From a virus: a stretch of 30,224 bases of DNA. Below the pieces are notes generated by a model. It searched no databases. It saw only the letters and a list, made by a program, of their open reading frames with translations, and was not told the origin of the DNA. The stretch covers positions 1 through 30,224 of IMG/VR virus record IMGVR_UViG_3300020385_000041; one strand, 5' to 3'. Positions 96 through 8,014 of this stretch are shown piece after piece. How positions within the stretch are numbered: position 1 is the stretch's first letter; each line of letters begins with the position of its first letter. Position numbers and translations under genes: made by a program.

Positions 96-148
96 AGCAC
101 TCTCCCAAAGTGTCACCGCCAATCGCGGCCCGATAAGGGTATCGCATA
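96..148 (-). promoter_or_regulatory. Shared leader, copy C (TATGCGATA box, hairpin, CTTTGGGAG)
   Basis: On the minus strand the order is TATGCGATA (140-148), 10 nt, a short stem GCCGC/GCGGT (115-129, with one G-U pair), 8 nt to GGGAG, and then the TTG start of the partial gene. The order matches copies A and B. TGCGATA resembles an extended -10 element. If it is one, the RNA would begin just before the hairpin. Confidence 0.6.
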
Positions 149-156
149 CGCGAGAC

Positions 157-181
157 AAAAAAAAGCCCGCTCGGGGCGGGC
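157..181 (-). terminator. Intrinsic terminator after the 118-aa gene
   Basis: On the minus strand GCCCGC pairs with GCGGGC around a 5-nt loop and is followed by eight T. The half-sequence GGGGCGGGCTATC recurs 20 bp away (173-185 and 193-205), so part of the terminator looks duplicated. Confidence 0.85.
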
Positions 182-199
182 TATCGGATCGGGGGCGGG

Positions 200-556
200 C
201 TATCCCGCTTCAACGGTTTCCAATGGAGCGCCATATTCGAGGTCCCGCACCGCTCTCGCCGCCCTTTGTTTCTCACCAATAATTTGCAGTTTTAAACACC
301 GAACGCAATTTATAATAAACCGGTCTAAATCGTCTGGCTCCCAACCGCCGCCCGCAATTAACTCCGCAATTTTGTCCGCGTTTAAATCGGGCTCGCATTG
401 TTCGCGAATGTAACGATCCAGCGCGGGCCATTCGGCGTGCAACTCTTCAGGGTCAATATCGTTTGCGTCCAGCACCGCGCCAATTTCATAAGAGGAAAGC
501 GAAATTTCATTCGGCTCAATATCATAATCGCGAAGGTCTAAATTTAGTGTGGCCAT
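200..556 (-). CDS. Acidic phage protein, unknown function (118 aa)
   Basis: I do not recognise a family. The start is the ATG at 554-556, placed by the strong GGGAG of leader copy A. A longer upstream reading frame would run through the terminator and leader and is rejected. The protein is acidic and probably helical. The N-terminal half has many D/E residues (LNLDLRDYDIEPNE) and the middle reads ELHAEWPALDRYIREQCEPD, while the C-terminal third is more basic (GEKQRAARAVRDLEYG). There is no signal peptide or membrane segment. It sits as a single-gene unit with its own leader upstream and an intrinsic terminator downstream. Confidence 0.75.
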   Translation of the reverse strand: MATLNLDLRDYDIEPNEISLSSYEIGAVLDANDIDPEELHAEWPALDRYIREQCEPDLNADKIAELIAGGGWEPDDLDRFIINCVRCLKLQIIGEKQRAARAVRDLEYGAPLETVEAG

Positions 557-609
557 AAAACTTTCTCCCAAAGTTAGCCGCGACATTGCGGCAATCGGAC
601 TATCGCATA
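557..609 (-). promoter_or_regulatory. Shared leader, copy A (TATGCGATA box, hairpin, CTTTGGGAG)
   Basis: On the minus strand the order is TATGCGATA (601-609), 8 nt, stem GCCGC (588-592 on the plus strand), loop AATGTC, stem GCGGC (577-581), 7 nt, GGGAG, 8 nt, ATG. The loop sequence, spacing and SD region match copy B, while the stem carries a compensated base-pair change. Box-to-hairpin spacing suggests that the hairpin lies at the 5' end of the mRNA. Confidence 0.7.
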
Positions 610-619
610 TCCCGCAGAC

Positions 620-645
620 AAAAAAAAGCCCCGCCGAAGCGGGGC
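620..645 (-). terminator. Intrinsic terminator with UUCG tetraloop after the DUF932 gene
   Basis: On the minus strand GCCCCGC and GCGGGGC form a 7-bp stem closed by a C(UUCG)G tetraloop, followed by eight T. It lies 20 bp after the DUF932 stop. The box of leader copy A begins only about 10 bp past the T-run. Confidence 0.9.
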
Positions 646-664
646 ACACTTTGGGAAGTGTAGG

Positions 665-1801
665 TTATGCGGCCATCGCCACGCGTTGCCAATCGGATCG
701 GGGCAGATCCAACACGCGCCCGCCCAGCTTCTGCCAATCGTCAACACTATCCGCATCCGCCTGATGCGCTACCGCCGTCACAGCGTTTACCATAGTGGCG
801 CGGGTTACTGGCTGACCGGCGTAACCTGCCTGCCCGATAGTGGCGAGCAAGCCGTCCATTAAGCTGGCGGTGTCCTTTTTGGTCAGCGCCAACACTTTAC
901 CCATAGCCTCGACGGCAGACTGTGGCGAGCCCTCGACTTTGTCATCATGCGCGGTTTTCATTTTTTCCAGCACTTCATCGAATGATTCACGGCTGGCATA
1001 GGCGGCAGTGACATCCCGCATTTGAAGCGCCAGCGCGTGATTGTCCGCATCCTTCGCTTCATCAGTCAGCAAGCCCCACGTATCGGCATCGCCACGCGCC
1101 CCGGTAATATGAGACTTTCGGGTCCGCTTCTCAGTCTGCATACCGTTCAGGCAGGCCAGCGTCCAAAACATTTGGTAAACGTTGACGCTACCGCAGCCGA
1201 CTTCACTGTTGCTCATACCAATGCCCAGCGCCATGATGTCGCCAACTGCCGCGCCCTCGCCAGTGATCACCGCCGACTTGAGCCGCAGGTATAGGCGCTT
1301 GTCGGTCACCGTCCCGTTAACCACTTGCCACTGGGCATCGCTTTCCAGCAGTTCGGGCAGTGCGGACTGCAACAGGTGAACGTTATCGAACGTTTTAAAT
1401 TTGTCGCTGACAAATGCGCGGGCAGTGCTGGCGTCGGGGGCAGAGTGCTGGAACGAACGGATCATCCGCACCGCCGGTTCTTTCTGCCAGATAGCATTGA
1501 TCAGTCCATCGAATTCAGTGGAGTAATCCTGTTGAAGGCGGCGCGCAGTACGGACATCGATCCCGGCCCGCTGGCTGATTTGGTCAAACGCCACATCATT
1601 GGCGGTCAGGATCTGAGTCGGTGCCCCGCCGGATTGCTCCATGATGATCTGGCTGACCTTGCTACCGTCACCCCAGTCACAGGTCAGGAGTTGAAGTTGG
1701 TTAGTGGGTGCCAGAAAGTCCTGCGATCTAGCGGCTTGGTCCTGCACCTGTTGAAGCAGGCGGGTCAGGGTGTTATCTGAATTTTCAATCGTATGTTGCA
1801 T
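665..1801 (-). CDS. DUF932 phage/plasmid-like protein (378 aa)
   Basis: The sequence matches the DUF932 family (phage/plasmid-like protein), which is common in phages and conjugative plasmids and has no settled biochemical function. The signature is in the middle, where GIGMSNSEVGCGSVNVYQMF is followed by TLACLNGM. The N-terminal part (about residues 1-100) is Gln-rich and helical, and a helical C-terminal region with Ala/Asp-rich stretches follows. The start is the ATG at 1799-1801, set by the GGGAG of leader copy B. The longer frame upstream (45 extra codons) crosses the leader and is unlikely. The gene is monocistronic, with its own leader and a UUCG terminator. In other phages DUF932 genes are often expressed early, near replication or recombination functions. 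A role in DNA metabolism is only an inference. Confidence 0.85.
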   Translation of the reverse strand: MQHTIENSDNTLTRLLQQVQDQAARSQDFLAPTNQLQLLTCDWGDGSKVSQIIMEQSGGAPTQILTANDVAFDQISQRAGIDVRTARRLQQDYSTEFDGLINAIWQKEPAVRMIRSFQHSAPDASTARAFVSDKFKTFDNVHLLQSALPELLESDAQWQVVNGTVTDKRLYLRLKSAVITGEGAAVGDIMALGIGMSNSEVGCGSVNVYQMFWTLACLNGMQTEKRTRKSHITGARGDADTWGLLTDEAKDADNHALALQMRDVTAAYASRESFDEVLEKMKTAHDDKVEGSPQSAVEAMGKVLALTKKDTASLMDGLLATIGQAGYAGQPVTRATMVNAVTAVAHQADADSVDDWQKLGGRVLDLPRSDWQRVAMAA

Positions 1802-1854
1802 GGTTACTTCTCCCAAAGCACGCGGCGACATTGCCGCAACCGAACTATCGCATA
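1802..1854 (-). promoter_or_regulatory. Shared leader, copy B (TATGCGATA box, hairpin, CTTTGGGAG)
   Basis: On the minus strand the order is TATGCGATA (1846-1854), 8 nt, stem GCGGC, loop AATGTC, stem GCCGC (1822-1837), 7 nt, GGGAG, 7 nt, ATG. Compared with copy A, the central pair of the stem is changed from C-G to G-C on both sides while the loop is identical. That is what selection on an RNA stem would produce. Confidence 0.7.
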
Positions 1855-7673: not shown

Positions 7674-7702
7674 TATATAACATACATAAAAAACATACGC
7701 AA
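7674..7702 (-). promoter_or_regulatory. Promoter of the Cas4-like operon
   Basis: On the minus strand TTGCGT (7697-7702), a 17-bp spacer and TATATA (7674-7679) match sigma-70 hexamers, and only 6 nt separate the -10 from the ATG. The -35 overlaps the T-run of the upstream terminator. Confidence 0.55.
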
Positions 7703-7725
7703 AAAAAACCCCGCGTTGCGCGGGG
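7701..7725 (-). terminator. Intrinsic terminator after the 71-aa gene
   Basis: On the minus strand CCCCGCG and CGCGGGG form a 7-bp stem (loop CAA), followed by eight T. It closes the transcript that contains the replication module and the small genes behind it. Confidence 0.9.
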
Positions 7726-7743
7726 CTCGGGTTAAATGTTGTT

Positions 7744-7758
7744 CACTTTGGGAGAAAA
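7744..7758 (+). repeat. Orphan copy of the leader SD motif, opposite strand
   Basis: CACTTTGGGAGAAAA on the plus strand is a 15-base exact match to the SD region of the 135-aa gene's leader (2344-2358, minus strand). No start codon follows at a usable distance. A similar ACTTTAGGAG follows at 7773-7782 inside a small hairpin, AACACT-N5-AGTGTT. It lies between a gene and its terminator. Confidence 0.5.
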
Positions 7759-7798
7759 CTACCAACCCTAAACACTTTAGGAGTGTTGCATGAGCCAT

Positions 7799-8014
7799 TC
7801 ATGCATCTCTATGATATCCCACGGGGGTTATCACTTCAAGAATTTCCATCGTGGCCTGTTCTTCTGGAACAACCGAAAGATCTATCTGTAACGCAACCGG
7901 TTTATTTAGACGGTCGGCGGTTTGATGGGCGGCCTGTATTGCTATTTTTACGTCGTCGGCCTCTAATCCAAACCACCATTTACTAGCTCGTCTATCAAAC
8001 GGCCCAGAAACCAT
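7799..8014 (-). CDS. Small phage protein, unknown function (71 aa)
   Basis: The start is an ATG with AGGA 8-9 nt upstream, overlapping the end of the DUF3310 gene by 52 nt. The protein begins MVSGPFDRRASKWWFGLEAD, followed by a helix (VKIAIQAAHQTADRLNKPVA) and two strands (LQIDLSVVP, MEILEVITP). It looks like a small alpha/beta domain. I do not recognise it. It is the last gene before the terminator at 7701-7725. Confidence 0.6.
   Translation of the reverse strand: MVSGPFDRRASKWWFGLEADDVKIAIQAAHQTADRLNKPVALQIDLSVVPEEQATMEILEVITPVGYHRDA

Follow-up and report, generated by a model that had tools for sequence, protein, structure and literature searches.

Among described phage elements, the promoter-early stem-loops (PeSLs; Arbiol 2010, Comeau 2014) of T4-type phages consist of a terminator stem-loop followed by a host-type promoter. 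As cited in PMC4503421, PeSLs lie between small unrelated genes of the variable region and have been linked to gene shuffling. Several phage antisense RNAs are also known, including c4 of P1/P7, sar of P22, and OOP of lambda. c4 and sar block the translation of ant, and the complementary sequences of c4 are probably displayed in loops (PMC12197685). In addition, VpdS of phage VP882 and PreS of lambda are trans-acting phage sRNAs that pair with mRNAs (PMC12197685).

The locus analysed here resembles the PeSLs in having composite terminator and promoter units, termed leaders below, which lie between genes and are repeated in a variable region. Unlike the PeSLs, the leaders also have a 5'-terminal mRNA hairpin and a conserved Shine-Dalgarno (SD) tag, to which a candidate antisense RNA corresponds. 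PeSLs are found in T4-type myoviruses, while the nearest annotated relatives of the present virus, judged by DNA polymerase, are not T4-type. As with c4, sar, and OOP, a phage-encoded RNA is complementary to phage mRNA. Those RNAs are described from temperate phages with one target each, and are encoded opposite or next to it, whereas here one candidate RNA (7804-7701) matches a shared tag on 4-8 unrelated genes, and its four targets in the analysed sequence lie at 93-2473. VpdS and PreS involve Hfq, temperate phages, and host targets, and no shared leader module or tag is given for them in PMC12197685. A description of a phage sRNA reading a shared SD tag was not found in the open-licence papers searched.

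The window, meaning the whole IMG/VR stretch of 30,224 bases that was analysed, is part of a tailed phage and carries genes for a family A DNA polymerase, a UvrD-like helicase, an AEP-type primase, and a terminase small subunit. It belongs to a group of uncultured marine viruses of bacteria. No near-identical annotated phages were found by megablast. The nearest annotated relatives by DNA polymerase identity are DSL-LC04 (56%), 023Pt_psg01 (55%), and Pelagibacter phage HTVC023P (49%), and the exact leader is absent from all of them. DSL-LC04 and HTVC023P have many small genes between the small and large terminase genes (TerS and TerL), and this region corresponds to the cassette region of the window. 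The text consulted of the HTVC027P transcriptome paper gives no temporal class for the homologous genes.

All of the leaders in the window are on the minus strand. The first-pass annotation had reported three leaders with the same parts in the same order, and all three are found where it had placed them. The box TATGCGATA is located at 148-140, 609-601, and 1854-1846, and the tag CTTTGGGAG at 110-102, 573-565, and 1818-1810. The hairpins between them have the stem GCCGC/GCGGT (129-115) and the sequences GCCGC AATGTC GCGGC (592-577) and GCGGC AATGTC GCCGC (1837-1822). Leader 1 (93-148) precedes a KLLDT-type gene that starts with TTG at 95 and extends beyond the window end, and relatives of this gene have the same leader. 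Leader 2 (556-609) precedes the gene of a 118-aa protein (ATG at 556). Leader 3 (1799-1877) has a -35 element, TTGCGG, with a 17-bp spacer to GATAGT, and precedes the gene of a 378-aa phrog_1362 protein (ATG at 1801). A fourth, long leader at 2473-2340 had been overlooked. It has an exact box at 2473-2465 (TATGCGATAAT), a hairpin at 2453-2439, and, in its 3' part, a conserved structured segment and the tag TCACTTTGGGAGAAAA (~2358-2343, with the exact tag at 2356-2348) before an ATG at 2340, giving a UTR of ~130 nt. The gene family of leader 4 occurs behind the short as well as the long leader. With up to one mismatch allowed, the window contains 13 boxes (4.6 expected) and 17 tags (8.3 expected); neither count was equalled in 100 shuffles.

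The earlier suggestion that the box is an extended -10 element agrees with the promoter spacing in the relatives. TTG is found at -18 from the box, with a 17-bp spacer to GATAnn, in 36 of the 50 leaders without an upstream T-run. In the leaders with a preceding terminator, the T-run begins at -18 in 37 of 53, thus occupying the place of the -35 element. In L213/L214, a canonical TAATAT stands in place of the box, 17 bp from TTGCAT, and in L216/L217/L220 TACATT or TACCCT takes this position with the spacing of 17 bp unchanged; the hairpin and tag are retained in each case. Since replacements occur at this distance and TTG or a T-run is located at -18, the box is assigned as the -10 element, and TATGCGATAnn with a -35 at ~17 bp has the form of a sigma70-type extended -10 promoter.

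The first-pass annotation had also placed the mRNA start at the hairpin, and the predicted +1 does fall on the first bases of the hairpin. In 70 of the 78 distinct leaders, at most 2 nt separate the beginning of the stem from the predicted +1. In an alignment of 26 distinct leaders, 95.1% of the cells of the five-pair stem are paired, compared with 80.4% after shuffling, and four of the five pairs show two-sided changes. The stem has a covariation score of 0.42, compared with 0.21 in shuffles, and none of 500 shuffles reached this value; shifting the partner by one column lowers it to ~0.01. By this comparison of sequences, the leader hairpin is kept by compensatory changes.

The search for the box and tag in related phages that the first-pass annotation had recommended, in the form box-N15-45-tag, matched 85 IMG/VR stretches, many of them with 2-6 leader copies. 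The spacing peaks at 26-30 nt, which accounts for 139 of the 166 counted occurrences. As a control, 257 Gb of bacterial and archaeal genomes gave 96 stretches, and all 80 of those examined were single copies with flat spacing. The leader was rejected as a bacterial-genome element because these matches are single, scattered, and chance-like. Dozens of related viral contigs carry the leader, with up to six exact copies per whole record; a contig belonging to the GG clade described below has eight. The proteins behind the leaders in the relatives form 35 clusters, a few of them chance hits, and about 30 unrelated gene families sit behind the leader. Multi-copy leaders before so many unrelated genes are what was expected of the proposed modular, copied expression unit. 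The same annotation had held that conservation of the genes without the box and hairpin would speak against such a unit, and this pattern is present in part: in L221-L230, a DUF932-like gene (82% identical) has no leader directly before it, and in L222 an inserted gene separates it from the leader upstream.

On the leader strand, the window contains a single exact reverse complement of the tag, at 7754-7746 (CTCCCAAAG). This sequence is the core of the seed loop UUUUCUCCCAAAGUGAAC (7741-7758, minus strand), which is antisense to the CACUUUGGGAG of the leaders and belongs to a candidate trans-acting sRNA (7701-7839, minus strand) located 5.4-7.7 kb from the leaders. The candidate comprises a predicted promoter of its own, a hairpin at the 5' end, a stem-loop that exposes the seed, and a terminator. 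The predicted promoter consists of a -35 element, TTGAAG (7839-7834), and a -10 element, TATCAT (7816-7811), separated by 17 bp, and the predicted transcript runs from ~7804 to 7701 (~104 nt). The element lies between the gene of a 71-aa protein and a Cas4-type nuclease gene, with the seed immediately 5' of the strong intrinsic terminator GCCCCGCGCAACGCGGGG and its T8 (7701-7726). Rfam release 15 gave no matches in the window above the gathering score. Membership of the Pseudomon-1/ErsA family (RF01719) was rejected at 28.9 bits, below the gathering score of 50; the likeness is a weak, overall one of stem-loop and terminator, and the present element has a conserved loop with specificity for the tag of the phage.

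The relatives used to assess the conservation of the sRNA were selected by the Cas4-type nuclease protein and not by the seed. The seed and terminator are directly upstream of the nuclease gene in 43 of 43 testable loci (at least 74% identity), while the flanks vary. In a group with 63% nuclease identity, the sRNA is not directly upstream of this gene and is found elsewhere in the contig where checked (L037, L085). Homologues are also present in divergent relatives, again on the leader strand. Three pairs of the outer stem show two-sided changes, and the loop is constant. RNAalifold on a MAFFT alignment recovered the outer stem and terminator only, since the inner stem shifts register. The promoter-like TTGA-17-TAnnnT and the T8 terminator are conserved in the relatives, with the conservation of the -35 partly explained by the protein because this element is within a coding region. 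The homologues also share another conserved stretch, ACTCCTAAA (e.g., ~7786-7772, minus strand), which is able to pair with AGGAG-type SDs; no clear phage target of this segment was found.

Possible starts across the window, 1279 in all, were ranked as targets with the 18-nt loop of the sRNA only. The first four places are taken by the four leader genes, at -26.2, -21.5, -20.7, and -19.8 kcal/mol, while the energies of the 1279 starts have a mean of -5.7 and a standard deviation of 2.7 kcal/mol. The strongest pairing among the leaders is with the tag of leader 4. In L037, the six leader genes are at the top of the ranks, and in L248 leader genes take most of the top ranks. As expected of a trans-acting sRNA, the candidate has a seed that is conserved, exposed, and complementary to the SD region of several mRNAs; the seed also resembles a generic anti-SD (CUCC). 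A ranking of the full sRNA in duplexfold was discarded, as it over-rewards long interior loops and placed the antisense strand itself first.

The seed and the tag have changed together in one group of relatives. The leaders of phages G013-G017 carry CTTTGGAG, with one G fewer. This form is shared by all 19 leaders observed in one nested clade, where the sRNA has CTCCAAAG. Where it is visible, in four of these GG phages, the sRNA reads TTTTCTCCAAAGTG, with one C fewer in a nearly unchanged frame. A TCCC seed is found with GGG tags only in 22 contigs, and a TCC seed with the 19 GG tags and no GGG tag in four contigs of the nested clade. The GG phages form one clade nested among the GGG phages (tree support 0.93), which points to one switch event involving every leader and the sRNA. 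Cognate seed and tag pair better than non-cognate ones by ~3-8 kcal/mol for every leader. The exceptions are L419 (=L225/L228), with a TCC seed and GGG tags, L254, with three GGG tags, one GG tag, and a TTCCC seed, and L223, with one GG tag and a TTCCC seed; all of them come from a more divergent group. L365 may be a separate GG lineage whose sRNA is off the contig. Sequence evolution supports pairing between the sRNA and the tag well.

A 3'UTR hairpin (646-661, minus strand), located directly 5' of the terminator preceding leader 2, holds a further antisense-like version of the tag, ACACTTCCCAAAGTGT. Such antisense-like hairpins before a terminator are also seen in L020, L061, and L246, with the C count varying from C2 to C4. 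The hairpin type fits the shorter tag in the GG clade and shows no strict fit elsewhere. It has been left out of the main evidence because C4 occurs with G3 tags in several contigs.

Based on these observations, we consider it likely that a trans-acting sRNA of the phage prevents ribosomes from binding to the mRNAs of several modular genes, each with a promoter of its own. The proposal builds on the module, its promoter spacing, the conservation of the hairpin and sRNA, the best predicted pairing at the leader genes, and the joint change of seed and tag, all of which are established in the compared sequences. Weighing against it are the restriction of the switch from GGG to GG to essentially one clade, and so to a single event on the tree, albeit one with many sites, the exceptions L419, L254, and L223, the repeated tags of related groups for which no matching sRNA was detected, the overlap of the sRNA's -35 with coding sequence, and the likeness of the seed to a generic anti-SD. 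Each leader would be a copied module made of the intrinsic terminator of the previous gene, a sigma70-type extended -10 promoter, a 5'-terminal hairpin, and the tag ACTTTGGGAG, which contains the SD, and each would drive its own gene. The ~104-nt sRNA would be transcribed from its own promoter, present CUCCCAAAGUG in a stem-loop, and pair in trans with the tags, hiding the SD of all leader genes together. Translation would be lowered as a result, perhaps with cleavage by RNase III or RNase E. Repression is the most likely effect because the SD in the tag is open in the predicted leader fold and would be covered by pairing with the sRNA. We infer that the sRNA is produced and represses its targets; a need for Hfq is conceivable, and the suggested timing, a shut-off of the cassette genes, is a guess. 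Control of the leader genes by one factor had been raised as a possibility, and this factor is most likely a phage sRNA antisense to the tag, which the first-pass annotation had not foreseen.

The leaders could also be a copied promoter and 5'UTR cassette only, spread by recombination like the T4-type PeSLs. In that case, the mRNA would be stabilised by its 5' hairpin and strongly expressed through its SD, and the antisense RNA would arise as a by-product of little consequence for regulation. The fusion of terminator and promoter and the many unrelated downstream genes fit such a cassette, and other phage groups have group-specific tags for which no matching sRNA was found. However, this leaves unexplained the conserved stem-loop with its invariant, exactly antisense loop, the predicted promoter and terminator of the sRNA itself, and the coordinated one-base change, and we regard it as unlikely. 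Alternatively, the pairing is real and works in the other direction, with the sRNA activating or stabilising the leader mRNAs, or with the abundant leader mRNAs and the 3'UTR hairpins (661-646) acting as a sponge for a host-targeting sRNA. A role of this kind would suit the second antisense-like hairpin before some leaders, which is changed in the GG clade, and the segment ACTCCTAAA that lacks a clear phage target. On the other hand, blocking is more natural for an SD that is not hidden in the predicted fold, and the top predicted targets are the four phage leaders, which makes activation or sponging improbable.

A phage or host protein, such as a RegA-like translational repressor, might bind the hairpin and CUUUGGGAG, which would explain their conservation. 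The hairpin loop begins with AAU or GAU in most leaders, and the hairpin is 1-4 nt from the tag, in line with a protein binding site. Yet L027/L055 have no hairpin though the box and tag remain, and the tag differs between groups while the layout is constant. The conserved RNA is not a decoy for such a protein, since it is complementary to the tag and not similar to it. Control by a protein of this kind is very unlikely, and blocking of the SD by the sRNA is the preferred reading.

In DSL-LC04 and its relatives, the same promoter-hairpin-tag layout is found with CATACAGGAGAAA, and in the group L450-L508 the tag is AGAAAGGATAGA. No sRNA matching the repeated other tags was detected in the DSL-LC04, HTVC023P, and L450-L508 groups, suggesting that a shared tag is possible without sRNA control. 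The DSL-LC04 relatives have a single partial 3'UTR antisense, TTCCTGTATGG, before a terminator. Antisense matches in L450-L508 were rejected as sRNAs because they look like the same tag before an opposite-strand gene. The tags are therefore a family-wide habit, and the case for the sRNA is limited to the clade to which the window belongs. As a tentative generalization, which we hold to be possible but doubtful, each phage group may have its own SD "address tag" (ACTTTGGGAG, CTTTGGAG, CATACAGGAGAAA, AGAAAGGATAGA, and others), read by a dedicated sRNA in at least one clade, which would amount to a private RNA-based control channel for modular genes. With reader and tag changing in step, cross-regulation between related phages in the same cell would be avoided. 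If the proposed blocking is correct, one phage sRNA would control many unrelated, exchangeable genes by way of the ribosome-binding tag that they share, and phages may have a route to gain accessory genes already wired into a control circuit. The natural compensatory mutations in seed and tag provide a ready-made test, and the natural sRNA/tag pair could be used as an orthogonal regulator.

Some variants of the leader and tag have also been observed. At L034:11134-11179 and G006:18809-18852, a palindrome, TGTTCCACGTGGAACA / TGTTCCATGTGGAACA, which resembles a parS site, stands in place of the GC hairpin. The leaders of L022 and L073, with 37-nt spacing, have the box, then a full intrinsic terminator, and then the tag, possibly an attenuator form. 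In the cultured SAR11 phage HTVC023P (L091), ACTAACAAAG(C/G)GAG is repeated before some genes of the same region (13057 and 15285) and is possibly another tag.

In the long leader 4, the hairpin is followed by the boxA-like sequence GTTCTTTAACA (2434-2424) and a highly conserved segment with the end CGCGAGTCCGCTATCGGATGGCA, together covering 2453-2348 (minus strand). GTTCTTTAACA is kept in relatives and fully matches GYTCTTTAANA, the gamma-proteobacterial consensus of boxA, a Nus factor site (PMC5725501). The arrangement of hairpin, boxA, and segment is found before several different genes in the relatives, and its function is possibly Nus-factor antitermination or SD occlusion. In two DSL-LC04 relatives, L446 (~11100) and L449 (~11105), a hairpin and TTCTTTAACC are located immediately 5' of the tag of the first cassette; therefore, the boxA-type leader seems to be common to the wider family.
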